53,279 nt of DNA, from NCBI GenBank assembly GCA_017435615.1, contig JAFSET010000061.1, forward strand, positions 1 to 53,279, given 5' to 3'. Origin of the DNA: Oscillospiraceae bacterium (GTDB lineage Bacteria > Bacillota > Clostridia > Oscillospirales > Oscillospiraceae). Positions 2,438 to 41,315 of this stretch are shown piece after piece; within the stretch, counting starts at the first letter, position 1, and the number at the start of each line of letters is the position of its first letter. The translations under genes and the position numbers were made by a program. The notes beneath the pieces were generated by a model. It searched no databases and was not told where the DNA came from. It worked only from the letters and a program-made list of their open reading frames with translations.

Positions 2438-3187
2438 TTACTTTTGGATGTACGCACGAACATTATCCATATAAAACTCCTGAGGCTTTTCGTGCAATTC
2501 CGCACGGTCAAAGGTGATATGGAAACCGCCCACCGCCTCCAACGCCTCGGCGCCGTATTTCATATACCGGGCGCCGTTATCGTCGTAGGCCACCAGCTTA
2601 AATTCCTCTGCGGGAATTTTCAGGTTGTTCCACTGCTGCGGCTGTAAACGTACAGAATATACAATGTTGTAGGGATTATTGGGATGGGTTGCATACCGAT
2701 CCTCCATGGTGTTGTTGGGATCGATCTGGGAATTCATATAAAACCGGATCTCCACCTCATAATCCTGACAGTTGTATATATCCACACTCAGATAGTCCAT
2801 ATCCGAAAAATCCGTTGTGTAGTTAAAATAGCCGGTGGTGGTGGAAATGCGCAGATTGGGGCGGCGTTTCATCCAGGAGCTTTCGTTTCCGGAGATGGTG
2901 ATATGGCCGCTTCCTTCGCCGTTTGTCACCATTTCCGGCTCATCCCCACGGCTGACCAGCTCGATCTTGCCAAAGTCTGCATACAATCCCAACTGAGAGG
3001 CTTCAAAATAGTTTTCAAAGTCTGCCAGCAGATAATAGGTCTGTCCGTTCTCGTCTGTTTCCACCACATTGCTGCGCTGTTCCGCTTCCGGCTCCGTGGC
3101 AGCCGGAGCTTCCGGCTGCTCACCGTTGCAGGCAGAGAGTGTGAAAAGGCACAGCACCGCAAAGATAAGGCAAAGTATTTTCTTCAT
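2438..3187 (-). CDS. Small lipoprotein with jelly-roll carbohydrate-binding-type module
   Basis: This 249-residue lipoprotein starts at an ATG behind AAAGGAGGCACCGTGAT. Its lipobox is LSAC with the acylated Cys at residue 20. A Pro/Glu-rich spacer follows, then one beta-rich domain beginning YYLLADFENYFE, with DFSDMDYLSVDIYN in the middle and ending FYMDNVRAYIQK. The terminal 'DNVRVY' strand is typical of galactose-binding or CBM-like jelly rolls. Operon B has a clear homologue at the equivalent place (27398-28129), and the C-terminus of the fusion protein (47306-53279) is a third copy. The start lies 1 bp after the GH123-like gene stop, so translational coupling is likely. The probable role is glycan binding at the outer face of the membrane beside the transporter. 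Ligand unknown. Confidence 0.85.
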   Translation of the reverse strand: MKKILCLIFAVLCLFTLSACNGEQPEAPAATEPEAEQRSNVVETDENGQTYYLLADFENYFEASQLGLYADFGKIELVSRGDEPEMVTNGEGSGHITISGNESSWMKRRPNLRISTTTGYFNYTTDFSDMDYLSVDIYNCQDYEVEIRFYMNSQIDPNNTMEDRYATHPNNPYNIVYSVRLQPQQWNNLKIPAEEFKLVAYDDNGARYMKYGAEALEAVGGFHITFDRAELHEKPQEFYMDNVRAYIQK

Positions 3188-3188
3188 A

Positions 3189-5648
3189 TCACGGTGCCTC
3201 CTTTACGGTTACAAGGCTATCCACATATACGGTAACCGCCGTACCTCTTTCAAAGTTGAAATCGATCTCCTCGATCGCGTCGATATCCTCCAGCTCACCT
3301 ACAGGCATTGTCAGCTCCACCAAGGTCCACTGACCGGGCAGCAATTCAAAGGAATTCATATTGACATCCTGATTGGTGTAATAGGTAACAGACAGATTTA
3401 CCGTTTCCGAAGCCGGGTTGTACAGATACATCTTGACGGTCTGAATACCTTGCCAGCTTCCGCCAATGAGCGCGGAGTCCTTTGTCAGCGCAAAGAACGG
3501 CAACGCATCTTCCGCATTGGGGTTCATCTCAATTTTCATGGAGCCAGTGCCCTCTTGGGCCATTTCGTTGCTATACTGACCGGAATTCTTTCCAAAGCAG
3601 CTAATCCAGTTTCCGCAATCCTCTGCCGGATCTTCAAAGCTCTGCACCTGTCCCAACTGACCGTCGATCAAGGTATGGGTCACGGTGCGGATGCTGTCAC
3701 CGTTTTGGATCTGATAGGTGAATTCCTTCTGTTGGGTCAGGTCAAAATGATAGGTATAAACCCCTTGCTCATCCGGGGTCTGCACCTGACCGTCTACCAA
3801 AATCCGGACATCCGGTGCCGTCTTAAAGGCGATCGTGGCTGTGGCAACACCGATATCCGTTGCCACACGGTAAACCTCGTTTCCGGCACACAAATTCAAG
3901 ATCATTTCAAACAACTGTGTACGCACCTGCTCAAAGGCATACACATCCCGGTTGGGGATCAGTCCGGGGGAGTAGATCTGCCGGAACAGGGGTTCCAGCA
4001 CGTTCATCGCGTCCAGGCCCTGCTTTTGATACAGGTCACGGACCACATTCAGAAGCTGATAATCCTCAGACATATCCCGATATGCCACCATACGCAGCGA
4101 CGGACAAGGTCCGTCAATGCCGTATTTCGCGCCGGGGTAGGTCAGCTTGCCGTCACCGGCGCTGGGTTCACCGGTATGCATATTGGTCCAGGCGTCCTCC
4201 ATAGGCTCGCCCCAGATCTGCCAGATATAGCAGGAGGTAGCCCACATCAGGTAAGTCGGCGTATCCAGCTCATAGCACATCCAGCCCAGTACACGGGTGG
4301 ACAGGGGCAGATCGTCGGTATGGGCATTGGGATAGGGATAGGTAGGACTCCAGCAGGTGTACATCCAAACGTCCACATTTTCCCGGCCCTCCCGAATAGC
4401 CTCAGCATAGCCCGGCGTTGCAAAGGTATGAAGCACCGGACAAACTGTCAGATTATCCAGCCCATAGGCCTTCACATCTTCAACATCGTAAGCGCCGGGA
4501 ATGACATCGGGGATGTTGGTCAGCACCGGGGAAACTGTATTGATGTAATAGTCATAATCCTGCGTTCCCGCATACTCCCCACGCAGCTCCGTGTCGCAGT
4601 CAAAGAGCATCTGAAAATACAGGTCAATGGTCTTTTTCGCGTCCAAGAACTGCTGCTCGGATGCAGGCTCGTCCACATCCGTATAGAAGTAGGAATAGGC
4701 CTTGTCCAAATAGTTGATCCGATCCTCCACCGATGCATGGGCCAGGGCCCGGATGTACTCCTTCATCAGCGGCAGGTTCACATTGGTGCTGGTGCCGTCA
4801 TAGCCGGAGCCGGTGGGCTCGTAGTAAAGAGCGTAGGCCGTAAAGCCGTCCTTGAAGTAATACTCCCGGATCAGCTCAATATACCGTTCAATACCGCCGT
4901 TTCCTTCAAAAGGCACCTTGCAGCTCATATTGTACTTGAGCATCAGGTCCACATATTGTTTCATGATCTCATCAGACGAATTCAGCTCGGACGAAGCCAG
5001 ATGATCCCGGTCAAACCAGGAAAAGGCTGTGCGCAGCTCCTCCACGCCGGTCAGGTCAATATCATGGACCGTAACCTCCAGAGGGATCTTGTACACGTTT
5101 TCATCTGCCGTTACCGTCACTGTGCCGGTATACACACCGGCAGCCGTTCCGGCTGTGGCCGTAATATCCAGCAGCACCGCCTGATTATGACCGGCCTCGA
5201 TCGCCGTTTCGCCGTATGCCACCGCTGTTTCCATAGGCAGCAGCGGATCCGGCACATAGCCGTTTGCGTAATTGGGGTTTCCGGGCCGGCTGGTATTTAC
5301 CGACTCCTGATAAAGCTGATCCCAGATCTCCACGCTTTCAGCCGGAATTACGGCATCACCGCAGATCAGGTCAGAAACCTCCACATTGTAGCAGCTTACC
5401 GCCTTGTTGGCATACATCATAAGCTGCACGGCTTCTGTTTCATTTTTGGCCATCTGAACCTGCAAAACAGACTTGTCGCCGGCTGTTTTTGCCGCTTCGC
5501 CCCCATCATTTTGCAGGTATTTGATCCCGGAAGGCTCTGACCACAGCACCAAATCGCCGGTTTGACCGGCACGGATATCCGCGCAGCCGCACAGGCCAAC
5601 GCACAGGCTGACTATTAGAAGCCACGCAAGGATCGTTTTTGCTTTCAT
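3189..5648 (-). CDS. GH123/DUF4091-like glycoside hydrolase lipoprotein (operon A)
   Basis: This 819-residue extracellular lipoprotein has lipobox LCGC with Cys22. ACGGAGGTGTTGAT precedes the ATG. An N-terminal beta-sandwich (about 30-190) starts LVLWSEPSGIKYL, and a barrel domain follows. DVDEP places an Asp-Glu pair at residues 326-327, matching the catalytic dyad of GH123, where the Asp assists the substrate acetamido group and the Glu is the acid/base. A DUF4091-type segment near 496-530 reads GDGKLTYPGAKYGIDGPCPS, then a conserved arginine- and aspartate-containing stretch. A C-terminal jelly roll (about 660-819) follows. GH123 enzymes act on beta-N-acetylgalactosaminides, but this subgroup is distant and the substrate is not certain. 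It sits between the solute-binding protein and the small binding lipoprotein, as its homologue does at 28133-30595. Confidence 0.8.
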   Translation of the reverse strand: MKAKTILAWLLIVSLCVGLCGCADIRAGQTGDLVLWSEPSGIKYLQNDGGEAAKTAGDKSVLQVQMAKNETEAVQLMMYANKAVSCYNVEVSDLICGDAVIPAESVEIWDQLYQESVNTSRPGNPNYANGYVPDPLLPMETAVAYGETAIEAGHNQAVLLDITATAGTAAGVYTGTVTVTADENVYKIPLEVTVHDIDLTGVEELRTAFSWFDRDHLASSELNSSDEIMKQYVDLMLKYNMSCKVPFEGNGGIERYIELIREYYFKDGFTAYALYYEPTGSGYDGTSTNVNLPLMKEYIRALAHASVEDRINYLDKAYSYFYTDVDEPASEQQFLDAKKTIDLYFQMLFDCDTELRGEYAGTQDYDYYINTVSPVLTNIPDVIPGAYDVEDVKAYGLDNLTVCPVLHTFATPGYAEAIREGRENVDVWMYTCWSPTYPYPNAHTDDLPLSTRVLGWMCYELDTPTYLMWATSCYIWQIWGEPMEDAWTNMHTGEPSAGDGKLTYPGAKYGIDGPCPSLRMVAYRDMSEDYQLLNVVRDLYQKQGLDAMNVLEPLFRQIYSPGLIPNRDVYAFEQVRTQLFEMILNLCAGNEVYRVATDIGVATATIAFKTAPDVRILVDGQVQTPDEQGVYTYHFDLTQQKEFTYQIQNGDSIRTVTHTLIDGQLGQVQSFEDPAEDCGNWISCFGKNSGQYSNEMAQEGTGSMKIEMNPNAEDALPFFALTKDSALIGGSWQGIQTVKMYLYNPASETVNLSVTYYTNQDVNMNSFELLPGQWTLVELTMPVGELEDIDAIEEIDFNFERGTAVTVYVDSLVTVKEAP

Positions 5649-5684
5649 ATCAACACCTCCGTTTTCTCATAGTTCGGTGTGACA

Positions 5685-7331
5685 TCAACTGATCTTGCTG
5701 ATAATGCTGTCCCACTTCGCGCCGCTGTTTTCTTTCAAGAATTCATCTGCCAGCTCCTGTGCCGTGGCAAACTGGGGAACCGGAGAGGTGATATAGCTGT
5801 CCAAAGTGCCTGCGGCGCTACTTAATGCAATACTCTTTGCGCCGGCAAAGAAGAACAGCTCGTGGAACTTGTAATCACCCACAAAGACGCCTTCCTTTGT
5901 GGCCTCATAGATCGATTGCTCCGTAACGCTCAGGTCCTTGTATTCATACTTGTAGGGCGCAAAGCCGCCGATACAGTTGTCCTTCAAAAGCTGGATACCC
6001 TCATCGGATGCCATATAGATCAAAAACTTGTTTGCCAGTGCTTTCGCATCGGAAAACTCCGGCGCATACACCATATGCATATCGGCCTGGGAGCTGATGG
6101 TGTTCCGGGCCTGCTTGACAAATACCGCTTCTGCTTCTGTAACGCCGGCAGGCAGCGCATCCGCTCTGCCATCCACATAATCGATGACGGCAGAAAGGGT
6201 GGCATCGTCAGAAATATTGGGAAGTCTGGCTTCCTGATCAGCGCTGTAGCCATTGGTGCTGTCAATGATCGAAGAGATCACGGGGGTCTTCATCATTTTG
6301 ACGGTGGATGCCGCGCCGGTCTCACCGCTGTTGTCCAGCAGCTCCTGCATCAGCCAGTCACCGCAGGGATACAGCGCCAGCTTGTTCTTCGGGTCTACAA
6401 AACGCTTCTGATAGTCGTTGAGGTTATTGGTACCGATCTCTGCGGAGTTCGGCAACACAAAGCCGTTTTCCAGGGAAAGCAGCTCATAGGCCACTTCCAA
6501 AGCCTCCATACGGCCCTGCTGCTGATAGATCAGGGAAGATAGCTGAGATTCTCTGCTGCGGTCTTTGTCATAGCCAACACCTTCGTAGAACTTCAGCCAG
6601 TTATCAAAGCCCTCATACTGGGCCCAGTTGGGAATGAACATGGTTCTGGCGTACTGATCCAGCTCGCCGGGCACCAGCATAAAGCAACCGGCCTCCTTCA
6701 GTGACTCACAAAGGGCGATCAGTTCATCGGTGGTATTGGGCACCTTCCAGTTGCCCTCACCCAGGGCTTCGTTGATCACGGTTTCGTTATAGTACATACC
6801 CATGGTGCCCTGCATATAGGGCAGGCCGTAATATACATCGTCTGCCGGATCTTCCGTATCACGGCCCTGAGACTGATAGGGTGCCAGCAGCGTGCTGTGC
6901 AGTTTTTCCGCTACAGTAATGCCCTCGCCGGGAATTTCTGCTGCCAGCACATCGTTCAGGGGTCTCATGGCCTGTTTGCCGCCGTAATAGCTGCTGTACT
7001 CCTGTACAAGACCGCCCATACCGGTGGCATAGATATCAAAATACAGGTCTGTTTCGCTCTTTTTGTAGTTTTTCATATCACCACGGATAATATCGCTTTT
7101 GCTGATGGTGGTGATCTTTACTTCCACACCGGGGTTGGCTTTTTCAAAGCCTTCCTTCAAAGCAGTCAGCCACTGGAAGCCATAGCCCTTGTGCAGGCAC
7201 ATAATGTCCAGTGTGGTGGTATCCTCCACAATGTTTTCAGGATCAAAGGTTTCCTGTTGGCCGCAGGCTGCCGCAGAGAGCATCAGCAGCATTGCCAAAA
7301 GCGCGCATATCAGCTTTTTCATCGTTTTCAT
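5685..7331 (-). CDS. ABC transporter solute-binding lipoprotein (operon A)
   Basis: This is an extracellular solute-binding protein, family 1 type, of about 548 residues. I chose the ATG at 7329-7331 because GGAGG lies eight bases upstream; a longer in-frame ATG at 7346 would put that ribosome site inside the gene. The signal peptide ends in a lipobox-like AAAC with Cys23. The mature part begins with TTTLDIMCLHKGYGFQWL, then an EKANPGVEVKI strand, the usual start of sugar-binding proteins of CUT1 systems. Later features include a GLPYMQGTMGMYYN segment and CGDWLMQEL. The two permease genes lie directly upstream. It delivers an oligosaccharide to those permeases. The ligand cannot be read from the sequence. 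The paralogue at 30606-32246 has similar length and the same landmarks. Confidence 0.9.
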   Translation of the reverse strand: MKTMKKLICALLAMLLMLSAAACGQQETFDPENIVEDTTTLDIMCLHKGYGFQWLTALKEGFEKANPGVEVKITTISKSDIIRGDMKNYKKSETDLYFDIYATGMGGLVQEYSSYYGGKQAMRPLNDVLAAEIPGEGITVAEKLHSTLLAPYQSQGRDTEDPADDVYYGLPYMQGTMGMYYNETVINEALGEGNWKVPNTTDELIALCESLKEAGCFMLVPGELDQYARTMFIPNWAQYEGFDNWLKFYEGVGYDKDRSRESQLSSLIYQQQGRMEALEVAYELLSLENGFVLPNSAEIGTNNLNDYQKRFVDPKNKLALYPCGDWLMQELLDNSGETGAASTVKMMKTPVISSIIDSTNGYSADQEARLPNISDDATLSAVIDYVDGRADALPAGVTEAEAVFVKQARNTISSQADMHMVYAPEFSDAKALANKFLIYMASDEGIQLLKDNCIGGFAPYKYEYKDLSVTEQSIYEATKEGVFVGDYKFHELFFFAGAKSIALSSAAGTLDSYITSPVPQFATAQELADEFLKENSGAKWDSIISKIS

Positions 7332-7347
7332 AACATAAACCTCCATA

Positions 7348-8271
7348 TTAACCCTTCATACCGCCAATGGATATATTGTTCATGATCTGCTTGTTGAAGA
7401 TCAAAAACAGCACGGCTACAGGGATGATCGATATGAGCATACCGGCAAAATAGGTCGGCGTGCTTAATCCCAACTGGAACATATTATCCTTATACAGATA
7501 AAGGGCTGTGGACAGTGTGGGATAGGACGGCAGATACAGCAGCGGTACATCGTAGCTGTTCCACGCGGAAATAAACTGCATGACCGAAAGCGATACAATG
7601 ATCGGTCTTGCCTGGGGCAGCATCACCCGGAAAAATACGGTAAAGGGTCCGGCACCGTCGATCTGCGCCGCTTCCGCATAACCTGTAGGTAAATTCCGGA
7701 AAAACGCGTAGACGATCAAAAAGTACATACCGTGACCGGCACCCTGTCCGATCAAAAACAGCGGGGAATCCAGCAACCCTAAGTTGTCCAGTAATTGATA
7801 GTTTGCAGCGGTCTGTCCGTAAACCGGGATCATCATCTGCAAAACTACAAACGCATACAAAAACTTTCGTCCCGGAAATTCAAGCCGCGCTACCGCATAA
7901 GCGAAAAATACGGTAGAGACCATCTTGGTGGCAGTCATACCCAGACTGAACCACAGAGAATTGAGAATTAAGGAAAAATAGTTGGTGGTTACCAGTTCGC
8001 CGTCCACATAGGATTCGAATACAAACTTTTCCATTGCTTTTTGATAGTTGGAAAAGTCGATTTTCAGCGGGATAAAGCTGTTGGAATGATCCAGATACCA
8101 GCCCTCCTCCGCCAGGGAAACGCCAACGCCCCACAAGATCATCAGCACGAACAGGCCGCCCCAGATCAGAGGTATGAGGCCTAAAACATTGAATAATGTG
8201 CCGTTTTTCTTGATTTCCGACAGCCGGTTATAGGCCTTGGAATCTTTTCGGAACAAGTGTCTTTTTGCCAT
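7348..8271 (-). CDS. Carbohydrate ABC permease, MalG type (operon A)
   Basis: This 307-residue membrane protein has six likely membrane segments. The cytoplasmic EAA loop reads EAAQIDGAGPF from Glu200, the contact site for the ATPase. The C-terminus ends SIGGMKG, the usual ending of MalG-like CUT1 permeases. The ATG lies one base after the TAA of the upstream permease, inside a GAGGAGGTCGAGTACTAAT context, so the two are probably translated together. With the partner at 8273-9193 it forms the membrane channel for the sugar delivered by the lipoprotein at 5685-7331. There is no ATPase gene in this operon within the window. Confidence 0.93.
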   Translation of the reverse strand: MAKRHLFRKDSKAYNRLSEIKKNGTLFNVLGLIPLIWGGLFVLMILWGVGVSLAEEGWYLDHSNSFIPLKIDFSNYQKAMEKFVFESYVDGELVTTNYFSLILNSLWFSLGMTATKMVSTVFFAYAVARLEFPGRKFLYAFVVLQMMIPVYGQTAANYQLLDNLGLLDSPLFLIGQGAGHGMYFLIVYAFFRNLPTGYAEAAQIDGAGPFTVFFRVMLPQARPIIVSLSVMQFISAWNSYDVPLLYLPSYPTLSTALYLYKDNMFQLGLSTPTYFAGMLISIIPVAVLFLIFNKQIMNNISIGGMKG

Positions 8272-8272
8272 A

Positions 8273-9193
8273 TTAGTACTCGACCTCCTCTCCGAACCGG
8301 TTCATCAGCCAGCGGCCGACCACCACAAGGGGAATGGTGATTACCGTAAAGATCAGACCCACCGCTGCCACATTGCCATATTCCGAGGTCAGCCCCTGCA
8401 GGACCATATTGTACATCCAGAACGCGATGGTATTGGTGCCGTTGGCACCGCCGGTCAAGGCAAGTACCGAACCGGTAGCACCGAAGATGCCAATAACCTG
8501 TAAGGTGATCATCGTCACAAAGGTTGGCCAGATCAGCGGCATGACCACCTTCCGGAATTCTGTGAACGGTCCGATGCCCTCCAGCTTTCCAACCTCGATC
8601 AATTCCTTGGGGATCCGGGCCATTGAGCCCAGCCAGATCATCAGATTTCCGCCAATGCCCACAAAGATATCAAACATCATAATGTAGAGCATACCGTCTG
8701 TAAATCGCAGGGAAACCAGCTCCTCTTTGCCGGTCAGGGAATGGACCACTCCCATCACCGGGCCGGTGGAGGACATCAGATTGGCGTACAGCAACGCCAG
8801 CATAATGCCGCCCACCGCACCGGGCAAATACAGGGTAACCCGGGAAAAGCTGTAGCCAATGCTTTTGCGGTAAATGAGATAGGCGAAAAACATCGTCAAA
8901 GGCACCAGGGTCATTCCCATCAGGAAAAACGTCAGGGTGTTGCGAAAGGCCAGGCCCATATTGTCATTGCCTACATCGGAAAAAAGCTTTTCCCAGGCCC
9001 AAACGAAGTTATCCCAGCCTGTTTCCTGGGTAAATTGATTGGTAAAGGCCAGCTCAAAGGTTTCGATCTGCACACCCAGCCAAAAAACCAGCAGATGTAA
9101 AACCGCGGGGGCGCACAGCACAATGATGCATAGCCAATCCCAAAATCCGTTTTTGTATTTTCTTTTCTTCAGGGAATTCTTATTCTGCTTCAT
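8273..9193 (-). CDS. Carbohydrate ABC permease, MalF type (operon A)
   Basis: This is the second permease of the CUT1 transporter, about 306 residues from the ATG at 9191-9193 (MKQNKNSLKKRK). An earlier in-frame ATG at 9271 would add 26 residues overlapping the surface-protein gene. I prefer the later start because it matches the paralogue at 33175-34080, which starts MRKLSGRKSRN, and because GAGAAAGGCAGAG precedes it. It has six likely membrane segments and a degenerate EAA loop (EVGKLEGIGPF). Both permeases of this type end in EEVEY or TEVEY. The chosen start lies 14 bp inside the end of the giant surface-protein gene, so translation of the two is probably coupled. Confidence 0.88.
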   Translation of the reverse strand: MKQNKNSLKKRKYKNGFWDWLCIIVLCAPAVLHLLVFWLGVQIETFELAFTNQFTQETGWDNFVWAWEKLFSDVGNDNMGLAFRNTLTFFLMGMTLVPLTMFFAYLIYRKSIGYSFSRVTLYLPGAVGGIMLALLYANLMSSTGPVMGVVHSLTGKEELVSLRFTDGMLYIMMFDIFVGIGGNLMIWLGSMARIPKELIEVGKLEGIGPFTEFRKVVMPLIWPTFVTMITLQVIGIFGATGSVLALTGGANGTNTIAFWMYNMVLQGLTSEYGNVAAVGLIFTVITIPLVVVGRWLMNRFGEEVEY

Positions 9194-12100
9194 GTTTCTC
9201 TGCCTTTCTCTTGGTTTTCCGGCCAAGCAGAATTCCACCAGCCACAACGGCCAATACGGCCACAGCACCAATGCCGATCCAGATCACAGTCATATTCTGA
9301 CTGTCTGCCTGCTTGTGGGGGCTGCTGCATTGGATCACAGGCTGAATTTGCAGCTCCTGCAGATCCATATACACCCGTTCCAAAATCAGCTTGCCATCGG
9401 CGTCCACCGACAGCTTCTGATCGCCAACCAAAATGTACTGCACATAATAGCCGTCTTTGAGCTGCGCCGTCAGCTCCAGTGTGCCGCCAAAGGGCAGCTT
9501 GCCGTCCACAACATCACCGCCCAGCACCAGGGTGCAATTTGCATCCTCCTGCACAGAAACGGTATAACTGCGCTGCTCGGCCTCTACCGCAATGACTGTA
9601 TCCTGCCGGATGCTTCTGAGGGTGCAGGACCAAATGCCGGTTTGCGGATCAAATTGCAGCAGTTGGGTGATCGGCGTTTTGTTTGCCGTGACTTGCGGCA
9701 CAAGGCCCTTTTGGGCCGTTACCATCAGCGTCACATCACCACCGGTCAAAACCTGTGTCTGATCCACGGCAGCTTCCAGCCCCTGTGCCGTTTCCACCGT
9801 CACCGTATGCGTGGAAGCATCCTCGGCAATTTCGTAAGCAAAGGTCAAATCGCTGTTCAGCGCAGCGATGGTGTAGCAATACGCGCCGTCCAAACCGATC
9901 TGCACATCCTTTGTCACATCCTGTCCGTTGACCAGGAATACAGAAAGGCTCGTGCCGGGTTTTGTAAAGAAGCTGATCACACCAGTTTTGGATGCGGAAG
10001 CCACATCACTGTAGCCTTCCAGCGCGTCGGGGTAGTACAGTTCCGGAATGTTTTCGCCCCAACGCTCATAGGTTCTGAGCTGCGCTTTGTCTGCCTCGGC
10101 AGAAACATCCTCCACCGTGTAGATATCCTTCAGGCTGTACAGGAAGTAGCTCTCCTCCAAATCGGTGCCGTTGCAGCAGAAATGTCCGCCGTAATGGCCA
10201 CGCTCCACGCTGTCATACCAAGCAACAAGCTCCATCGTTTCCGCGGTATCACCGGCTTTGATGTACCAGCGGTCATATCGGTACAGACCGTTTTCATAGC
10301 ACTTGACGATACCCAGCTCCACACAGACACTGCCGCCAGGTGCAAACCAGTCACTTGCAAAGGAGGCCAGTCTTGTCATAGATGCCGGGTGGCAGAAATG
10401 CACCTGACCGGGTGTGATCTGGAACAGTGCGCCGCTATTGCCCCACAGGGTACTGACGTCGCCCAAAATGCCGATGGGAACCTGGTTAAACTGATTGGGC
10501 AGCTTCAGACGGAACTGCACAGCCGAATTGACCGCTGCCTGTCCTTCCGGACCTACCATGGCACCCAGGCTCACACCGTACTGCTTGCCCTTCACCTCTA
10601 TCACAGCTTTGCCGGAGGTATCAAACAGGTCAAAGATCCATACCGGCTCGTCTACGGTCAATTCCTTTATTTCCAGCTCCACACGAAGCTGATCGGTTTC
10701 TTCGGGCTTCTCCAGGGAATAAACCTGCTTGCCCTCCTGGGTCTCAATGGGCTGCAACAGTTCTCCGTTCAGATACAGGCCCTTTAAGGTCACTTTATTG
10801 TTATAATCAGAATGGTAAAGCACGCTGATCTTCGAGGGCTGGCCGGAGACCACCTGGCTGATGACCTCCACGAAATCGCATTTCTCCACAATTTCACCGT
10901 TGACGACCGTCTCTACAGGAAGCGTTGCCGTCTTCTTCAGCGTGGAAAGACTTACCTGAGAATCCTGGGATGTCAGCAGCATCACATAATTGCCGATGGG
11001 CCGGCCAAAATCCATATCCTCCCAGGAGGCGATCTCTTCACCGTTGATCAGCAGATAAACGTAGCGGCAATAGTTGCCGATCTGTTTTCCGTCCTTCTCA
11101 ATGACCACATCCCTTACGCCCATCTCCACTGTATAGCTTCCGGAATAGGGGAACGGCTTGATCACTTCATGGTCATTGGTTCCGTGGGCAATATAGGCCG
11201 TATCCCACTTGGGTCTGAGCCATACCTGCCAGCCGGAGCCTGCTTCATCCCAGAAGTTGTCGCCCTGCTGCTTGGAAAGTGCCAATCGGACCTCCGTGGC
11301 GTTGCCATCCAAATTCATCCGCATACGGACCGCCACATTGGACGAAGAACCGGTCTGTCCCAGCGGAATGGTCTGACCGCCGGGAACGGTATCCGACGCA
11401 AAACCGGTCAGATCGTAGTAGTCGTAAACGGTAGGCTCCAACTGCCGCAGGGTAACGCCTTCACTGGTCAGAGAGATCAGCTTGTTATCCACAGCGTCCT
11501 GAGAATTTAGGGCATACAGTTTTTTGCCAACGGTTCTTTCCAGATCCGTATCCATATAGGAAAGCACTTCCACGCCGTCGATCTTTAAATAGATCTTGCG
11601 GCAGTACAGGCCTACATTCTTGCCGTCTATGTACTCATCCATATTGACGGTGCCGAATTCCACAACAAATTCTTCTTTTGTAAATTCATAGCGGTTGGTA
11701 ACCTGCCAGTCCACTTCTCCGTGGGCCAGGTAGACCTGATTGTACTTGGGCCGCAGCCACACCTGCCAACCGGCCTTATCCCACATGCCGTCCAGCTTGG
11801 AGAAGCCCAAGTTGAACTCTGACGCATCCAAATTGGTGGACACGATGGCACGGATGGCAATGTTGGTGCCGCTGGCTGCTTCACCGATCAGTTGCACACC
11901 GGGCTTTACTTCAAATTCAGAAAGACCCAGCTTCAATTCGGAGATATCCTGAATTTGATATTCCTGCTCCCGCAGATCCCGCAGGTAGTCGCCGATCTCC
12001 CAGTTGCCTTCGCCGTCATAGACGAAGCTCTGCTTTTCAAAGGTTACCGCATGGTCACCGTTGCCGAATACGCCGTCAATGGTCACCACATCACCCTTTT

Positions 12101-16067: not shown

Positions 16068-16525
16068 AAAACCGTTCCTCCTCAAAGATCTAAAAGCACA
16101 TTCTATCGACTACGATTGCATTTTATCTACTTTACAATATACCAATCCGCTCCTGTTCTGGCTTGCTTTTATTTTTGTAATTGTCGATTTTTTATATACT
16201 TTTGTTGGTAATTTTTGCCGTTTTGTAGATATTGAACAAAACGTAATTTCAATTTTATAGCATTGCGCACAAAAATCCGCCCACCGAAGCATATAAACGA
16301 AATAACTGTTTATTTACGATTGCGAATAAATAATCACAACTGCCGAAACCCGCATTTATATAGTTAAAAGTTCCGTTTTCATTAAAATTTATTTTATTTT
16401 TTCGTATTTTTTATCATATTTATGGGTGTTTTTTCTTGTTTGTTTTTTACATATTGGAATTTTTCGACACCCCATTGACAAAGTCTTCCTTTTCCATTTA
16501 TAATATTCAGAAGGAGGGATGCTTT
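16068..16525. other. AT-rich divergent intergenic regulatory region
   Basis: These 458 bp separate operon A (leftward) from the AraC-type regulator (rightward). The base composition is much richer in A+T than the flanking genes. It contains two copies of TACGATTGC (16111-16119 and 16315-16323) and a TTTATT/AATAAA dyad around 16309-16330. These could be regulator sites but could also arise by chance. I could not identify a convincing leftward promoter. No coding frame is supported here. Confidence 0.5.
16475..16504 (+). promoter_or_regulatory. Consensus sigma-A promoter of the AraC-type gene
   Basis: TTGACA at 16475-16480 and TATAAT at 16499-16504 are both perfect matches, separated by 18 bp. 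Transcription would begin near 16511, right at the AAGGAGG ribosome site, leaving a leader of only about 15 bases before the ATG at 16526. Confidence 0.75.
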
Positions 16526-19943: not shown

Positions 19944-20010
19944 CGGTACACCTCCTTCTGTATGACACCATAACATTCTGGTTTTTGGTACCTATTATGA
20001 ATACTTACGC

Positions 20011-22461: not shown

Positions 22462-22463
22462 TT

Positions 22464-23645: not shown

Positions 23646-23654
23646 AATCTTCTC

Positions 23655-30595: not shown

Positions 30596-30605
30596 ATCGT
30601 TCTCC

Positions 30606-32246
30606 TTACTCGAAAAGTCTGTTCAGATAGGTGCTCCAGCGGTCATCGGCATACTCTGTCAGGAAGATATTGTTGTATTCCTCCGGAGTCTGTCCGTTCT
30701 TGGCGGTCATCATATCCACAAAGTATGTATTCAGATTATAGGGCTGAACATTGGCCTTGCTGAAAATGTCACCCGCGCGGTAGAAGCCTACATAAACGGC
30801 GTCCTTGGTGCAGTCATAGATGGATTGCTCTGTTTCGTGCAGCTTCTCGTAGTCATAGGCATACTGGAAGGGGGAGAAGCCGCCGGCGCAGTTGTCCTTG
30901 AAGATCTGAATACCTTCATCGGACGCCATAAACAGCAGGAACTGGTCGGCTAAAGCCTTGGCATTGCTGTAAACAGGGGCAAACACCGTATGGGTCGGTG
31001 CCAGTGTGGCAACCATATTCCGGGCAGAACGGATGTACGCCACCTCTTCCTCGGTCACGCCTGCAGGCAGCTCACCCTCTCCGTCCACATAGGCAACCAC
31101 CTGAGACAGCATCTCGTCGGAGGTGATGTTGGGCAAACGCTTTTCGCCACCGGCAGAATAGCTGTTGGTAGCTTCCAGGATGTTGCTGGTCACAGGGACC
31201 TTCATCATCTTGACGGTGGAGTCCAGCTCCACGGTGGTGTTATTCTGCACCTCCTGCATCAGCCAGTCGCCGGATACATAGAACGCATACTTGTTTTCCT
31301 GGATCATGAAGTTTGTCTGATAGTCATTCAAACGGTCCACGCCGATCTCAGCAGCATTCTGGTTTACATAGCCGGCATCATAGTTCAAAATATCATAGCA
31401 GGTCTGTGCGGATGCCAGACGACCGGGCTGATTAAAGATCTTGTTGGAGTTCTTCTCCTCCCGGTTCATACTGCTGTTGTAGCCGATGCCCTCATAGAAC
31501 TTGGTGTAGTTTTCAAAGCCTTCGTACTGCGCCCACCAGATCTGATACAAAGAGGTGGACCAGTAGTCGATCATACCGGGTACGAAGAACACACAGCCTT
31601 CTGCCTTCAGCCGCTCACACAGAGCGATCAGCTCATCGGTAGTTCTGGGTAACTCCCAGTTGCCCTCGCCCAGGGCATTATTGATCACGTCCTCGTTGTA
31701 GAACAGGCAGTGGTTACCGGCCACATAGGGCATCCAGTAATAGGTATCATCCGCGGTATCTTCCGTATCGCGGCCATTAACCTGACACATTTTACGCAGA
31801 CCGGGGAACAGCTTGTCTGCAATGGTCTGATCCTCACCGGGAATGGTGGTGTTATAAAGGGCAGTCAGATCACGCACTGCCTGACCGTCATTGTACATCT
31901 TCGCAAAGGATGCCAATGTGCCGTAGCCTTCAGACTTACTGAAGTACAGGTCGATATCATTGGTATTGGGGTTACGCAGGCTGTTTTCAACCTGGCCGGC
32001 TGTTCTGACGATCTGCAGATTGACATTGACACCGGGGTTCTTGTCCTGGAACGCCTTTACCAGGGCTTCCATCCACTTGGTACCGTAGCCCATGGCGTAG
32101 TACATAATGTTCAGATTGGTGGTATCCTCCACAGAGTTGTCAACCGTCTGATTTTGAGAACCGCCACCACCGCCGCAGCCGGCGAGCACAAGGCTCAGCG
32201 CAATGGTAACACTGAGCAGCAGCGCGATCATTCTTTTCGTTTTCAT
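30606..32246 (-). CDS. ABC transporter solute-binding lipoprotein (operon B)
   Basis: This 546-residue lipoprotein has lipobox LAGC with Cys24, followed by a Gly-rich spacer. The start follows GGAGATAGCTT. TTNLNIMYYAMGYGTKWM opens the mature domain, then QDKNPGVNVNLQI, SKSEGYGTLASF and, later, FYVSGDWLMQE. These match the paralogue at 5685-7331, so the two transporters arose by duplication, although enough differences exist to allow distinct ligands. The two permease genes lie immediately upstream. Confidence 0.9.
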   Translation of the reverse strand: MKTKRMIALLLSVTIALSLVLAGCGGGGGSQNQTVDNSVEDTTNLNIMYYAMGYGTKWMEALVKAFQDKNPGVNVNLQIVRTAGQVENSLRNPNTNDIDLYFSKSEGYGTLASFAKMYNDGQAVRDLTALYNTTIPGEDQTIADKLFPGLRKMCQVNGRDTEDTADDTYYWMPYVAGNHCLFYNEDVINNALGEGNWELPRTTDELIALCERLKAEGCVFFVPGMIDYWSTSLYQIWWAQYEGFENYTKFYEGIGYNSSMNREEKNSNKIFNQPGRLASAQTCYDILNYDAGYVNQNAAEIGVDRLNDYQTNFMIQENKYAFYVSGDWLMQEVQNNTTVELDSTVKMMKVPVTSNILEATNSYSAGGEKRLPNITSDEMLSQVVAYVDGEGELPAGVTEEEVAYIRSARNMVATLAPTHTVFAPVYSNAKALADQFLLFMASDEGIQIFKDNCAGGFSPFQYAYDYEKLHETEQSIYDCTKDAVYVGFYRAGDIFSKANVQPYNLNTYFVDMMTAKNGQTPEEYNNIFLTEYADDRWSTYLNRLFE

Positions 32247-32269
32247 AAGCTATCTCCTTTTTTGTTGCC

Positions 32270-33175
32270 TTAGCCTTTAATGCCGCCGGCAGAAACATTT
32301 TTGTTGAGCTTTCCACTGAATATGGCGTAGAGCACCACGACCGGAATAATCGACAGGAAAATACCTGCAAAATAGGTAGGTGTCTGCAAGCCGATATAGA
32401 ACATATAGGTCTGCAACACATACAGCATACTCGAAAGAGTGGGATTTGTTTTCTGGTACACCATAACCGTTGCGTAATCATTCCAGTAGAAAATAAAATT
32501 CATAATGCCCTGAGCGGTAATGATCGGCACCGCGCAAGGAAGCATAATATTTTTGAATACGGCAAAGGGTCCTGCGCCGTCGATCTTCGCCGCCTCTGCA
32601 TAGGCGTTGGGAAGTCCCTGGAAGTAGGCATACATAATCAGGAACAAGCCACCGTGTCCGGCACCCTGGCTGATATAGTACAGCCAGTTGTCTACCATAT
32701 TCATTTCTGCCAGCATCTTATATTTTGCCGCATCCTGACCGTAGGTAGGAATCATCATCTGCACCATAATAAAGGCGTACAGGAATTTTCTTCCCTTAAA
32801 CTCATAACGGGCAGTCACATAGGAAAACAGGGTGGTCACCACCAGCCGGGGCAGTGTACAGCCTAAGCTGTATACCAGGGAGTTCAGAAGCATTTCCGGA
32901 TAGGTGACCATCCGCATAATGCCGTTGCTGCCGCCTACCTCGATCATAAACTTCTGGGAAACATCGATAAAGTTTTGGATGGTATACTTGCCTACAAACA
33001 AGCCGTGTTCCCGAACCATAGTCAAATAGGTCGTCGGGTCACCCAATGCGACATTCAGTCCCCAAATAACAAGAAACAGCAGCAGGCAGCCCCATACCAG
33101 AGGAATAATACCCAGAAAATTGACCCAAAAGCCGTTGGCACGCAGCTCCCGACGGCGGGCTTTTAAGCTCATCAT
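32270..33175 (-). CDS. Carbohydrate ABC permease, MalG type (operon B)
   Basis: This 301-residue membrane protein has six likely membrane segments and an EAA loop (EAAKIDGAGPF, from Glu194). The C-terminus is SAGGIKG, matching the operon A protein. The first ATG shares one base with the TGA of the upstream permease (TGATGATG), so translation is coupled. A second ATG directly follows the first. It forms the channel with the product of 33175-34080. Confidence 0.93.
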   Translation of the reverse strand: MMSLKARRRELRANGFWVNFLGIIPLVWGCLLLFLVIWGLNVALGDPTTYLTMVREHGLFVGKYTIQNFIDVSQKFMIEVGGSNGIMRMVTYPEMLLNSLVYSLGCTLPRLVVTTLFSYVTARYEFKGRKFLYAFIMVQMMIPTYGQDAAKYKMLAEMNMVDNWLYYISQGAGHGGLFLIMYAYFQGLPNAYAEAAKIDGAGPFAVFKNIMLPCAVPIITAQGIMNFIFYWNDYATVMVYQKTNPTLSSMLYVLQTYMFYIGLQTPTYFAGIFLSIIPVVVLYAIFSGKLNKNVSAGGIKG

Positions 33176-34080
33176 CAGTATTCCACCTCCGTACCAAAGC
33201 GCTTCATGACCCCGCGGAATATGACATACAGGGGGATGGTCAGCAAAGTAAAGATAATACCCAATGCTGCCGCGTGGTTGTATTCGTTCACATTGCCGTT
33301 GAGCACAACGCTGTACATCCAGTAGCTCAGGGTTTGGGTGCCGTACTTACCTTCTGTCAGCACCAGCACGGAGCCGGTTGCGCCGAACATGCCGATGATC
33401 TGAATGGAAAGCATATTCACAAAGTTGGGCCATACCAGGGGCAAGATTACGGTTGTAAATTCTCTTGCCGGGGTAATGCCCTCCAAATTGCCGTACTCGA
33501 TCAGATCCTGGGGAATACGTCCGATGATGCTGGTCCAGGTCAGCAGGTTTGCGCCCACACCGATCAAAATATCGTAGATCAGCACATACAGCAGACCACT
33601 TTCCGTCAGCATAGAAAAGGGGGTGTCTGCACCGGTCATCTGCTGAAGCTGATGGAACAGCCAACCGTCGGAGGCCATAAACTTCTTATACAGCAGCGCC
33701 ACCATAATGCCGCCGATGGCACCGGGCAGGTACAGAGCCATACGGATAAACTTGTGGCCCACGACCTTCCGGAACAGCAGGTATGCAATAAACATACAGG
33801 CAGGAATCAGCAGCGCGTTCATCAGGAAAAAGATCATGGTGTTTTTAAATGCCAAAGGCATATCCACGCCGGTGGCCATGGTGAGGGCTTCGATCGCCCA
33901 TTTAAAGTTATCGAAGCCGATTTCACCGGTCAGCACATTGGTAAACGTCATCACGATGCTGTTCCACTGTATACCTGCCCAAAAGACGACCAAATGCAGG
34001 ATTGCCGGGGCGCAGAACGCCACAATAAGCCACTTCTCGCGGGTGATATTTCGGGATTTTCTTCCGCTCAACTTTCTCAT
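33175..34080 (-). CDS. Carbohydrate ABC permease, MalF type (operon B)
   Basis: This 301-residue permease starts MRKLSGRKSRN and ends GTEVEY. Six membrane segments and the loop EYGNLEGITPAREF occupy the place of the EAA motif. The start codon overlaps the stop of the giant surface-protein gene by four bases (ATGA), so the ribosome that ends the 2,412-residue protein can start the permease. The same surface-protein-to-permease coupling exists in operon A. Confidence 0.93.
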   Translation of the reverse strand: MRKLSGRKSRNITREKWLIVAFCAPAILHLVVFWAGIQWNSIVMTFTNVLTGEIGFDNFKWAIEALTMATGVDMPLAFKNTMIFFLMNALLIPACMFIAYLLFRKVVGHKFIRMALYLPGAIGGIMVALLYKKFMASDGWLFHQLQQMTGADTPFSMLTESGLLYVLIYDILIGVGANLLTWTSIIGRIPQDLIEYGNLEGITPAREFTTVILPLVWPNFVNMLSIQIIGMFGATGSVLVLTEGKYGTQTLSYWMYSVVLNGNVNEYNHAAALGIIFTLLTIPLYVIFRGVMKRFGTEVEY

Positions 34081-40000: not shown

Positions 40001-41315
40001 TCACGCCGGACCAGTTATCATTGCCTGTACCCGTCACGGTATTGGTTTCAAAACCGGTCAAGTCGTAAATATCATAAATATTTGCTGCGCCGTACTGCTT
40101 GCCACTTTCCGGCTCAGTAGTTTCCGGCTCGGTGGTTTCCGGTTCGGTGGTACCGGGCTCTTTTGTGGTGTCCATCTGAATGGCTGCGCCATAGTGGAAA
40201 TCTACCATATTTGTCCCCAGGTTATCCCCGGTCAGATAGCCAGCCGTGTCATTTACTTCGCAGACAGTCTCCCCGTCCATCTTTACATACAGATGCTTGC
40301 CGGTTCTGACGCCGCCCTGCAGAATATCCACAATGCCGATCTCCAGCTCGTAAGTGCCTGCCACAGCACAGACACTTCCCACCGCCAAGTCGCTGTTGTT
40401 GCGTCTGATGGCAACATAGGGCGCGCCGCCATTGTGGTTGATATATACCGCATAGCCGGGAGGATCCCAAACACTGGCCCCCTCCTTGGCATTTAAGGAA
40501 AGACGAACCTCCTGGGCTCCCATGGTCAGCTTGGTCCTGAACGCAATGTTTTCCTTGTGCGCTTCCTGGACCGCGCCCAGGACCACACCGGACCAGTTAT
40601 CATTGCCCGTACCCGTCACGGTATTGGTCTCGGAGCCGGTCAGATCATAAATGTCATAAACATTGGCTTCTGCGTATTCGTCTGTATAGGTGGTATCCAT
40701 CTGAATGGCCGCGCCATAGTGGAAGTCAATGATCTTGGTGCCTAACGCATCTCCGGTCAGATAGCCATTGGTGTCGTCTGCTTCGCAGATTACCTCGCCA
40801 TCCTTTTTCACATACACATGCTTACCGGTTCTGACGCCATCGGTCAGAATATCCACGATGCCGATCTCCAGCTCCCAGGTCCCTGCTACAGCGGAGACAC
40901 TTCCCACCACCAGGTCCTGCTGATTGCGCTTGATGGCGATATAGGGCGCGCCGCCATTGTGGTTGATATACACCGCATAGCCGGGGGGATCAAAAATGCT
41001 GGTTCCCTCCTTGGCATTCAGCGCCAATCGAACCTGCTGCTGTCCCATGGTCAGCTTTGTCTTGAACACAATGTTTTCCTTGTGTTCTTCCTTCACATCC
41101 GCAAAGAGCTGTCCGTCCCAGGTCTCGTCCGTTCCCTTGACGGTATTGGTCTTGGAGCCGGTCAGATCGTAAATGTCGTAGACATGTCCTTCCCCATACG
41201 TAACGGGCTGAGTGGTTTCGGCCTGAACCGCCGGCATTGCCCCCGTCAAATTGGGTAACAGCATAGCCAAAACCAGCGTAAGCGCCAACACTCGATTTCG
41301 TAAAGATGTTTTCAC
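34077..41315 (-). CDS. Giant membrane-anchored lectin-like repeat protein (operon B)
   Basis: This 2,412-residue protein begins at a GTG nine bases after GGGAGG. The signal peptide ends near residue 32 (AVQA/ET). About ten units of 175-200 residues follow (45-1925). Each starts VYDIYDLTG or a variant, has an EHKENIAFKTKLTM-type strand, LELEIGIVDIL, VGKHLYVKMDGEVICEYDD, GYLTGDALGTK and FHYGAAIQMDTT. This pattern resembles LamG/concanavalin-type beta sandwiches. A divergent unit with KCYEDGVYKYDRWYVKAG, Ig-like strands, a membrane segment (TIIAVAVLCVAALGGAVAVV) and a basic tail end it. TEP-rich linkers sit between units 2-4. It probably binds glycans at the cell surface and passes them to the transporter encoded downstream. 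This function is inferred. Confidence 0.88.
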   Translation of the reverse strand: MKTSLRNRVLALTLVLAMLLPNLTGAMPAVQAETTQPVTYGEGHVYDIYDLTGSKTNTVKGTDETWDGQLFADVKEEHKENIVFKTKLTMGQQQVRLALNAKEGTSIFDPPGYAVYINHNGGAPYIAIKRNQQDLVVGSVSAVAGTWELEIGIVDILTDGVRTGKHVYVKKDGEVICEADDTNGYLTGDALGTKIIDFHYGAAIQMDTTYTDEYAEANVYDIYDLTGSETNTVTGTGNDNWSGVVLGAVQEAHKENIAFRTKLTMGAQEVRLSLNAKEGASVWDPPGYAVYINHNGGAPYVAIRRNNSDLAVGSVCAVAGTYELEIGIVDILQGGVRTGKHLYVKMDGETVCEVNDTAGYLTGDNLGTNMVDFHYGAAIQMDTTKEPGTTEPETTEPETTEPESGKQYGAANIYDIYDLTGFETNTVTGTGNDNWSGVILGAVQEAHKENIAFKTELTMGAQEVRLSLNAKEGASVWDPPGYAVYLYGEGNAVDIRRNNTSLQVASVQGVAGTYILEVGIVDILENGNRVGKHLYVKMDDIIVCEYDDIDGYLTGDELGTQVIDFHYGAAIQMDTTKQIEPTEPDTTEPETTEPETTEPETTEPETTEPETVPQTVADGKVYDIHDLTGNYANTYYGAQAESLGIPGVADNWSDSVIGNVKAEDKENITFKTKLTVNKVRTDGPDTLRLSLGLTENATAMDFGGYSLRVTVDAADGKTYFGLYRNGAELAYWEEESVIGTYELEFSIQSILEEDKMVGKRLTLKKAGQVLKTCDDTNGFLTGDALGTKLAIFHYVDKVVMESTKPPVPQTVVDGKVYDIHDLTGNYENTYYGAQAESLGIPGVADNWSDSVIGNVKAEDKENITFKTKLTVNKVRTDGPDTLRLSLGLTEDGTAVDLKGYSLRILVDPADGKTYFSLYRNGENLAYWEEEIAIGTYELEFSIQSILEEDKMVGKRLTLKKDGRVLKTCDDTNGFLTGDALGTKLAIFHYVDKVVMESTKPPVLKTYAEPTVYDIYDLTGKASNTVKGTDETWEGQLYADVKAKHKENMAFKTKLTMGAQQVRLSLNAKEGADIFDPPGYAIYLYGADNCVEIRRNNASLQAASVQGLAGTYVFEAGIVDILQEGNRVGKHIYVKINDAVVCEYDDMDGYLTGTALGTQIIDFHYGAAIKMDSTTHTEPTVPETTEPETGTQSVAKATLYDLYALMGVSEVTVAGQLQGVWGTTLGHVNEAHKANVAFASDMDVDEPQTIMLGLGLTDLSQAVQVNSGYVLEIVNKTGEGETDTVKLHRAGAQIFIQNTDVDFHGKHALEFGMVDLLSDNKVIGKRLYVKLDGAEVFHYDDKTEFLTAKQLGTKIDIYASGNDLVLGSSRNLAAGQANVYDLYDMKGAEQLTVMGRATDPDNWGTTLGHILSEHKENMAFRTTVTMEEAQTVMLGLGLADNSMAVQLNSGYVLEIVMKTGKNEVDTVKIHRAGEQIYCKDQTVDLNGEYELEFGVVDLYDLDAKNAVVGKRIYLKVNGEEVLHYDDTVNALSDDALGTKVDVYVSGKSLKMTSIRGYQASNAVVYDLYDLSFRQTLEVSHSDDNGNVNWGVLIGNVDEAHKGNVALKTKVTMSRDQQQNLLIGLGLKGHWPVSGGFGYQIELIADPENKTDSLRIYKNANPEGGEPVGCYNAEQGFDFNGTFELEIGVTDLLDSDKKVVARRIYVKVDGRELMHFDDTKNVVSGADMGTVVAAYVSSGTAILGTCVAGIPTPNVMVYDIYDLLGRASVRLNRTDAGGAVVWTNVLGQVTATNDLNYALRVDMDTSQVDRSSLQELILGLCKDTDLFDSMGYRLSLYFGTDGTTSLVLRDSATDQVLASASGVYPGKYELEFGITDFFDSNMERIGKKLYLKIDGKEELSYLDKEINRVRGNLLCAYTTSPVTMTTKYGYITVPVTYVVNGEQADSSEYITSNTDVIPGKKSIIDVALGNQDEFTSVLMKQVLLNGQPITPISDKQDVYVFELKNPSKDDALTVKIEVHTLTVDEAQVYDLYEITGKKEIVIPANSVDQIGTLFADGQEGVLNRAIRFAYYIPKTGGGLRLGYGSDTSDIWSRTGTHIEIWCGFATISHGFHVSALSSGNTDIFKADSWSVVEVGIVKCYEDGVYKYDRWYVKAGETAGELELITYFDSTQRHDSTLNIMARTPDTGDDFKLTSTLEVRSVTDISETEDKEHAAVAFKPLFLKGESVKLVVFPVEGKTLESLTVNSETVKAALTSDGGYVYTLENAQQDVAFSYTVSDDESLYNITADNADHLQIIPDQTSVAAGGAVTVQIKMDGGYVLKSLTVNGADFLPMARYDKTALTYTLTLSGIREDKHIQAQAEKILQDGLVADGATEEKENTNLPTIIAVAVLCVAALGGAVAVVATRAKKKGRKQ
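35540..41190 (-). repeat. Ten tandem YDLTG-type coding repeats
   Basis: Unit starts fall near 41185, 40660, 40080, 39450, 38865, 38280, 37720, 37175, 36625 and 36050. Units 4 and 5 are close to identical in DNA: CTTTCCATGACCACC recurs at 38326 and 38911, a 585-bp (195-codon) shift. Units 1, 2, 3 and 6 form a second closely related group; 7 and 8 a third. The mixture points to repeated duplication followed by divergence. Confidence 0.8.
39490..39579 (-). repeat. 15-bp minisatellite encoding (TEPET) linker
   Basis: Six copies of a 15-bp unit (GGCTCGGTGGTCTCC and close variants) encode a TEPET linker between repeat units 3 and 4. The unit is a multiple of three, so copy changes would alter linker length without a frameshift. 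Confidence 0.8.

Follow-up and report, generated by a model that had tools for sequence, protein, structure and literature searches.

The way in which Gram-positive gut bacteria catch a polymer, before cutting and importing it, is understood less well than in Bacteroidetes. A Gram-positive polysaccharide utilisation locus (gpPUL) is defined, in the accessible text of its source, by at least one polysaccharide-degrading enzyme, a carbohydrate transport system and a transcriptional regulator (PMC5320581). A second source states, in its accessible text, that gpPULs have no surface glycan-binding protein (SGBP), and that a carbohydrate-binding module (CBM) on the endo-enzyme often substitutes for it (PMC10318527). 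We analysed contig JAFSET010000061.1 of an Oscillospiraceae bacterium (assembly GCA_017435615.1; 53,279 nucleotides, hereafter the window), in which dedicated giant repeat proteins stand directly before importer genes, twice in the same order, other forms being found elsewhere in the same genomes. The window is one whole contig (C48) of a metagenome-assembled genome (MAG) of 2.27 Mb, 76.6% complete. The MAG represents a gut bacterium that has not been cultured and whose relatives include deer-colon species.

Two gene sets of identical order

Genes were called from open reading frames (ORFs), with Pfam and blastp searches on the window proteins. Locus A (16067-2438) and locus B (41315-27398), both on the minus strand, hold the same six genes in the same order: a giant surface protein (gA or gB), a MalF-type permease, a MalG-type permease, a solute-binding protein (SBP), a GH123-like lipoprotein and a small jelly-roll lipoprotein (Table 1). 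Spacing within the six genes is -14 to 36 bp. Between the loci, identity is 50% for the MalF-type permease, 47% for the MalG-type permease, 45% for the SBP, 36% for the GH123-like protein and 34% for the jelly-roll protein, while the best alignment of gA with gB covers 694 positions at 27.5% identity, in the C-terminal parts (about 690 residues). From these comparisons the two loci are taken as paralogues of one operon carrying different main repeat arrays; the duplication must be old, since identity across the five small genes is only 34 to 50%. Because the main arrays differ, the two loci probably serve two different glycans.

The first-pass annotation of the window, made from its letters and ORFs alone, had proposed this twofold order, and ORFs, Pfam and blastp bear it out. 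It had each locus headed by a giant repeat protein, which holds, with the correction that the main arrays differ and that a third, enzyme-fused giant (g3) adjoins locus B. 'Anchored' stands in the sense of a predicted C-terminal hydrophobic helix with a basic tail, not of an LPXTG-like motif. Finally, it had taken the six genes as one unit; capture, trimming and import are still the best reading and agree with the signal and lipobox pattern, but locus B belongs to a longer run, operon B, which extends from the GH78 gene (44444) to 19002 with gaps of -67 to 40 bp by ORF ends.

A signal peptide or lipobox is present in the giant, SBP, GH123-like and jelly-roll proteins and in the RHS-like lipoprotein of operon B. 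No signal peptide was found in the GH78, GH20C, GHL6-like, beta-lactamase-fold, GH2 and GH29-like proteins of that operon. In the GH123-like protein of locus A, which the lipobox pattern missed, inspection by eye points to LCGC as a likely lipobox; the pattern's match TVNC in the GH20C protein was discounted, lying at residue 3 and without a hydrophobic stretch. Promoter-like sites in the scanned regions occurred in chance numbers (16 against 16.6 and 19 against 18.6); for terminator-like sites the A region was likewise near expectation (17 against 18.4), and the B region had an excess (31 against 18.6). Between the six genes of a set, the minus strand showed no terminator-like site; the scan was not used as evidence.

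Conservation and rarity

A pattern-based scan of a collection with one genome per species (84,980 species) returned nine loci, four near full-length and five at 22 to 24% identity. The near-full-length loci lie in two MAGs, two in RGIG8730 (water deer colon) and two in RGIG4196 (roe deer colon). Whether the gene order is confined to the window genome, a question raised at first pass, is thereby answered: it is identical in both sets of both deer MAGs, that is, in 6/6 sets across three genomes (hereafter the trio). Since it is kept at both loci in two further genomes, this order is not a matter of chance. In both deer MAGs g3 also lies next to locus B, with a four-gene divergent set between. 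For 16 genes, the giants included, dN/dS against each relative was 0.04 to 0.19, which indicates purifying selection; the highest values were those of gB and the RHS-like lipoprotein (0.16 to 0.19 for the latter).

In the rpoB region, the DNA of RGIG8730 and RGIG4196 is 86.6 and 86.1% identical to that of the window genome, compared to 85.7 and 84.7% for two genomes of its own genus, G001 and G021 (only DNA rows were used; protein rows from unreliable frames were left out). The deer MAGs are thus likely members of the same genus. Outside the trio, the locus B enzyme as query found nothing in 36 other genomes of the genus at E 1e-10, and one relative among 23 other genomes of the order (G045; 29% identity, E 2.5e-33). 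The SBP profile found no match in 393 other genomes of the order at 1e-40; within the window genome its third match was to the SBP on contig C39. A-type and B-type repeats were each found in 0/294 other genomes, and the enzyme profile in 0/397 other genomes of the phylum at 1e-30. For some genomes, the repeat, SBP and enzyme-profile searches scored only part of the candidates, and incomplete MAGs are numerous within the genus; a 'not found' is therefore no proof of absence. By these counts the system looks rare.

The giant proteins

Repeat types were found by iterated profiles. The B-type repeat (about 171 residues) occurs 11 times in gB, three times in gA and five times in the on-contig part of g3; the A-type repeat (about 109 residues) occurs nine times in gA and four times in a protein cut by the contig end (1405-2). 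The N-terminal A-type repeats of gA have no counterpart in gB, and what the two giants share is a C-terminal module and the membrane helix. In the two relatives gB has 7 and 8 B-type copies (1664 and 1824 amino acids, aa), and gA has 4 and 5 A-type copies, always with 3 B-type (1679 aa in RGIG8730, 1813 aa in RGIG4196). In the repeat tree, the final repeat of gB has as its nearest neighbour the final gB repeat of each relative, and two repeats within gB stem from a recent tandem duplication. The first gB repeat is nearest to a g3 repeat of RGIG4196, which suggests that the neighbouring giants gB and g3 exchanged repeats.

The C-terminal hydrophobic helix with its basic tail was found in gA and gB in 6/6 genes; it is absent from g3 (3/3), and neither of the two full-length second A-type proteins has it. 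No LPXTG-like motif occurs in the last 120 residues of the six gA and gB proteins (12 sequences were checked, one cut by the contig end). By prediction, then, gA and gB are membrane-anchored through the helix. Pfam gave in gA or gB no complete enzyme domain, no cohesin or dockerin match, and no CBM match over the cut-off. Three aromatic positions are conserved in the A-type repeat: W18 (40/41 copies), Y19 (41/41) and W49 (41/41). A similarity of this repeat to those of a giant on contig C56 (hhalign probability 31%, 25 columns) is not claimed, and one of B-type repeats to 3keto-disac_hyd, seen in one of four domains tested (E 0.043), is not significant.

The GH123-like enzyme, the jelly roll and g3

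The GH123-like proteins match PF13320 and PF22680; PF13320 is over the cut-off at loci A and B and in g3, along the C-terminal half of the profile. A search of solved sequences with a GH123-like profile gave 11 matches with E no higher than 1. Of these, nine are enzymes of the GH123 type, six carrying names that denote GalNAc cleavage, and the best is the oligosaccharide-releasing 8k2f (E 9e-21); the remaining two are ZapA (E 0.025 and 0.94). From its name in the PDB table, 8k2f would be NgaCa, a Group 1 enzyme which, in the accessible text, acts only on Gal-beta1,3-GalNAc-beta-pNP (PMC11087588). The Asp-Glu (DE) pair aligns with that of two canonical GH123 proteins which the window genome also encodes (the C95 row, in a wrong frame, was left out). 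Judged by profile and motif, the lipoproteins are members of family GH123; their beta-N-acetylgalactosaminidase activity is putative.

The jelly-roll lipoprotein matches the CBM-like repeats of a giant on contig C39 (hhalign E 4e-5, probability 70%, 47 columns). Repeats, enzyme and jelly roll are tied together by g3, which carries all three in one chain and is, on its domain content, a secreted fusion of the same parts; its orthologues measure 2430 and 2251 aa. The YHYGAAAQ module of g3 recurs in several secreted proteins of the window genome, and one stand-alone protein with it (1424-2383) has no Pfam match over the cut-off. GH123-like domains inside giants of about 2000 to 2600 aa with this module were seen at L015 10801-18699 and at 47306-53278 of the window.

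Giants beside importers elsewhere in the genomes

Loci of the CUT1 importer class were surveyed in ten genomes chosen by us: the trio and seven others at least 98% complete. We counted same-strand ORFs within 10 kb of an SBP locus, with a signal-like start or open at a contig end. The survey has 78 rows for 81 matches (G000 C91:25513 was left out, and the C34 and G058 C17 pairs were merged); some pieces are cut by contig ends, and PF01547 misses some SBPs, such as that of the C56 locus. ORFs of at least 1500 aa were found near 13/28 SBPs in the trio (12 by script, plus gB of RGIG4196 on the neighbouring piece L051), 0/25 in four same-genus genomes and 2/25 in three genomes of other families. 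At 1000 aa or more, the counts were 17/28, 1/25 and 5/25. With loci A and B excluded, they were 7/22 in the trio compared to 0/25 in the genus at 1500 aa or more. Fisher values for these counts are overstated, because the trio loci are orthologous and not independent.

CBM_4_9 was found in four of 16 other large proteins of the trio's sister CUT1 loci; one of these, on L149 (1160 aa), combines four CBM_4_9 stretches with a C-terminal helix and lacks an enzyme domain. On C39 a 2078-aa protein with six similar repeats (summed SGBP_B_XBD score, E 1e-23) adjoins a diverged SBP, a permease pair and a GH123-like lipoprotein. On C74 a relative of the jelly-roll lipoprotein, enlarged to at least 847 aa, lies beside an SBP and a GH123-like protein, at a locus that also has a GH106 gene; no permease was recognised within the 18 kb fetched. 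G058 lies outside the genus. Of its four large ORFs adjoining importers, three encode multimodular enzymes (GH43, GH2, GH97); the fourth (L136, 1759 aa, without a domain), counted in the survey, is probably antisense. Lipoproteins of 1741 aa (L113) and at least 1140 aa (L111) with near-identical N-termini were also seen beside SBP loci of RGIG4196 and RGIG8730, respectively; the one on L113 has no domain over the cut-off.

Proposed function and alternative explanations

We consider it probable that each locus is a Gram-positive utilisation locus combining a giant capture protein, cleavage outside the cell, CUT1 import and, at locus B, trimming in the cytoplasm. The giant, secreted and held in the membrane by its C-terminal helix, would span the wall with its beta-rich repeat array, as a multivalent stalk that captures glycan in place of an enzyme-borne CBM. 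This role has indirect support, since at some sister loci giants of this kind carry recognised glycan-binding domains. The GH123-like lipoprotein would then cut the captured, amino-sugar-containing heteroglycan outside the cell, by the substrate-assisted mechanism that beta-N-acetylgalactosaminidases carry out with an Asp-Glu pair, and might release oligosaccharides; the jelly-roll lipoprotein may be a second glycan-binding part. Import is assigned to the SBP (SBP_bac_1/8) and the MalF/MalG-type permease pair, the CUT1 features of both loci, and would be powered by a shared ATPase encoded elsewhere (OB_MalK matches: G060, E 9e-14, and G061, E 4e-13, in 447 aa frames; incomplete window genome, E 9e-6). 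The GH20C, GH78, GH2 and GH29-like enzymes of locus B, which lack signals, would finish the oligosaccharide in the cytoplasm.

The GH78 gene of operon B and the GH106 gene at C74 point to a rhamnose-containing heteroglycan as substrate. To our knowledge, mammalian mucin contains no rhamnose. The host glycans proposed at first pass are not supported, as a rhamnosidase-like gene heads operon B. Galacto-N-biose was considered as the imported sugar, the SBPs being nearest to TIGR03850 and TIGR03851 (below the cut-off); it was dropped, because 8/10 other SBPs of the genomes studied here match TIGR03850 and the GH112 phosphorylase (PF09508) was found in one of three genomes only.

Several results weigh against a capture role. 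Neither repeat type could be matched to any known family of glycan-binding domains (best PDB E 0.44 for B-type, 0.37 for A-type), the B-type repeat has no aromatic position kept in 90% of its 39 copies, and hhalign connected the B-type repeats neither with the jelly roll nor with the C39 repeats, of which no single stretch passes SGBP_B_XBD alone. No regulator adjoins the head of operon B. Among the 16 other large trio proteins, eight bear an enzyme domain over the cut-off (GDSL, GH43, GH42 in three, GH123, GH106, metallophosphatase) and eight do not, and three of the four CBM_4_9 proteins also carry a GH42-like domain; part of the genome-wide pattern therefore consists of large enzymes. Lastly, the gA Pfam match furthest above its cut-off is an oxidase family, AA9, and this only by summing repeats.

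That match reaches 61.3 bits in gA and 32.9 and 48.5 in its orthologues (cut-off 27.8; 3/3 over), covers about 50 of 207 profile positions and recurs inside each A-type repeat; single repeats score 12.5 to 16.8 bits in three of six tested, all below the cut-off, and the two full-length second A-type proteins show no match. AA9 lytic polysaccharide monooxygenases have an N-terminal histidine after the signal peptide; the first 20 or so residues after the predicted gA signal contain none. An AA9 enzyme was rejected on these grounds (partial match, summed over repeats, single repeats sub-threshold, no N-terminal histidine), and the signature is at most a weak hint of a beta-sandwich. For NPCBM_assoc, gA reaches 43.4 bits in a similar way, over 21 residues; both orthologues fall below the cut-off.

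The strongest competing explanation, in our view unlikely, makes the giant an adhesin or surface coat by which the cell attaches to food particles, to mucus or to other cells. The giant would then share the operon for reasons of place and hand nothing to the importer. Repeat copy numbers that vary between species (11/7/8 and 9/4/5), as is typical of adhesins, would fit it, as would the leading dN/dS values of gB and the RHS-like lipoprotein and the missing CBM match in both giants; against this, the giant lies directly before the permeases in 6/6 cases, some CBM-bearing giants adjoin importers at sister loci, and g3 fuses the same repeats to an enzyme. More doubtful still is a role as scaffold, in which the giant would organise enzyme, jelly roll and SBP on the surface through protein-protein rather than protein-glycan contacts. 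A scaffold would not need the array type to change between loci, and neither cohesin nor dockerin was matched, even though the helix places the giant in the membrane beside the lipoproteins and the C-terminal module is the part common to gA and gB.

Two further explanations concern the locus rather than the giant. The repeated order could be a relic of duplication in which the giant was carried along without a part in uptake; all five small genes are indeed paralogous, yet after a duplication this old (34 to 50%) order and giants were kept in six sets under purifying selection, and we regard a relic as very improbable. Still harder to credit is a contig foreign to the MAG, with rarity in the genus as a binning artefact. 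The absence of the enzyme from 36 same-genus genomes would follow from it, but both loci recur in two other MAGs, on separate contigs, and the rpoB-region identity of those MAGs (86.6 and 86.1%) resembles that of same-genus G001 and G021. In addition, tetranucleotide composition correlates with other fetched stretches of the bin (r 0.87 to 0.96), and matching pieces of the repeats occur on C27 and C59, two contigs of this bin.

A capture, cleavage and import unit is retained as the best reading. The first-pass annotation had offered it for Gram-positive gut bacteria, with Clostridia as the group to search, which is too broad for a system found in three genomes. A wider reading can be advanced only tentatively: one hindgut Clostridia lineage may have evolved a general Gram-positive counterpart of the Bacteroidetes SGBP, a membrane-held stalk on which unrelated arrays are swapped, one type per importer locus, diversifying by duplication and by exchange between neighbouring giants (gB and g3).

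Other genes of the window

The genes around the two sets are listed with them in Table 1. The AraC-type regulator beside locus A is kept in 3/3 genomes. Its orthologues have 297 aa, which places the start about 28 codons after the ORF start, and a perfect promoter-like site (TTGACA-18-TATAAT) was seen at 16475-16504 (+), inside the 5' part of the ORF; as the two agree, the gene probably starts near 16520. An HTH protein is encoded at 17461-18213, beyond the far end of operon B. Between the operons lies a self-complementary stretch of 49 bases (88%; 18775-18823), possibly a hairpin upstream of the HTH gene. The divergent set at 44377-47245 (+), between GH78 and g3 in 3/3 genomes, comprises an ABC ATPase, two proteins without assignment and a DUF624 protein, and is perhaps a separate exporter or sensor unit; from the lengths in relatives, the ATPase probably starts about 79 codons inside its ORF.

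Table 1. Features of the window (53,279 nucleotides) by position and strand; functions are assigned by homology
Feature	Position	Strand	Remarks
Locus A
Giant surface protein gA, 2295 aa from ATG	9180..16067	-	signal peptide, 9 A-type and 3 B-type repeats, predicted C-terminal membrane helix
A-type array of gA, residues ~40-1130	12678..15950	-	
Three B-type domains of gA, part common to gA and gB	10152..11966	-	
MalF-type permease	8273..9193	-	PF00528 E 6.6e-9; 50% to locus B
MalG-type permease	7348..8271	-	PF00528 E 2.7e-14
Solute-binding lipoprotein	5685..7346	-	PF13416/PF01547; lipobox AAAC
GH123-like lipoprotein	3189..5648	-	PF13320 E 9.8e-13; DE motif D326-E327 at 4668-4673
Jelly-roll-like lipoprotein	2438..3187	-	hhalign to CBM-like repeats of contig C39
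Locus B
Giant surface protein gB, 2412 aa	34077..41315	-	signal peptide, 11 B-type repeats, predicted C-terminal membrane helix
MalF-type permease	33175..34080	-	
MalG-type permease	32270..33175	-	
Solute-binding lipoprotein	30606..32246	-	PF01547 E 1e-13; lipobox LAGC
GH123-like lipoprotein	28133..30595	-	PF13320 E 2.9e-12; DE motif D331-E332 at 29600-29605
Jelly-roll-like lipoprotein	27398..28129	-	
Rest of operon B
GH78 alpha-L-rhamnosidase-like, first gene, no signal peptide	42225..44444	-	PF17389 E 1e-72
Lipoprotein with RHS/YD-like repeats, directly before gB	41356..42291	-	PF05593; lipobox; kept in 3/3 genomes
GH20C-type exo-hexosaminidase, no signal peptide	25616..27394	-	PF18088 E 3e-50; HIGMDE motif
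GHL6/GH29-like, beta-lactamase-fold hydrolase, GH2-type, GH29-like; none with signal peptide	19002..25592	-	
Flanks
Third giant g3, N-terminus off contig	47306..53278	-	B-type repeats, YHYGAAAQ module, B-type domain, GH123-like (DES 48860-48865), jelly roll
Divergent AraC-type regulator	16436..17413	+	PF12833 E 1e-16; 87% in both relatives
Secreted protein with YHYGAAAQ module	1424..2383	-	40% over 248 aa to g3
Second A-type repeat protein, cut by contig end	2..1405	-	1917 and 1812 aa in relatives

Comparison with known systems

By homology, the enzyme feature of a gpPUL is represented by the GH123-like protein at both loci and by GH78, GH20C and GH2 at locus B, and the transport feature by two permeases and an SBP at both. 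On these assignments, and with the divergent AraC-type gene as its candidate regulator, locus A would be a gpPUL, and locus B has two of the three features, as they are given in the accessible text (PMC5320581). With Group 1/GH123 beta-N-acetylgalactosaminidases, as far as their source is accessible, the lipoproteins share the GH123 N-terminal and catalytic domains and the DE motif (8k2f; PMC11087588); they differ as lipoproteins of about 820 aa with an extra C-terminal region, a distant, profile-level match and a putative activity.

The analogy to a Bacteroidetes polysaccharide utilisation locus (PUL), built differently, was apt in its logic. As with Bacteroidetes SGBP-B, the proposed surface capture protein is encoded with the cutter and the importer, and the C39 giant scores with SGBP_B_XBD. 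In contrast to Bacteroidetes PULs, no SusC or SusD domain was found in the window proteins scanned, and no outer membrane is expected; the arrays of gA and gB are much larger, and no homology of either giant to SGBPs was found. Among the papers listed in a literature search, with subscription literature mostly outside it, no title or abstract opening describes a CUT1 operon that begins with a giant anchored repeat protein. We know of no importer operon that contains Sas20 of Ruminococcus bromii. Sas20 resembles the proposed role of the giants as a starch-binding surface protein of a Gram-positive gut anaerobe, and differs in being assembled in amylosomes, according to the accessible text (PMC9112005).

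The present loci suggest that some Gram-positive bacteria build dedicated sugar-catching proteins of their own. Since two array types sit on a shared C-terminal module with paired importers, capture and import specificity can be compared directly. The Blautia producta mixed-linkage glucan locus, as far as its source is accessible, likewise has a cell-anchored endo-enzyme and an ABC importer, whereas here the candidate capture part has its own gene (PMC10318527). Like other gpPULs, the system described here brings ABC importer, glycoside hydrolases and, at locus A, a candidate regulator together in one locus; in the accessible text polysaccharide binding is expected in enzyme-borne CBMs, whereas here it would fall to a separate giant with no complete enzyme domain, anchored by prediction and encoded directly before the importer genes (PMC5320581).

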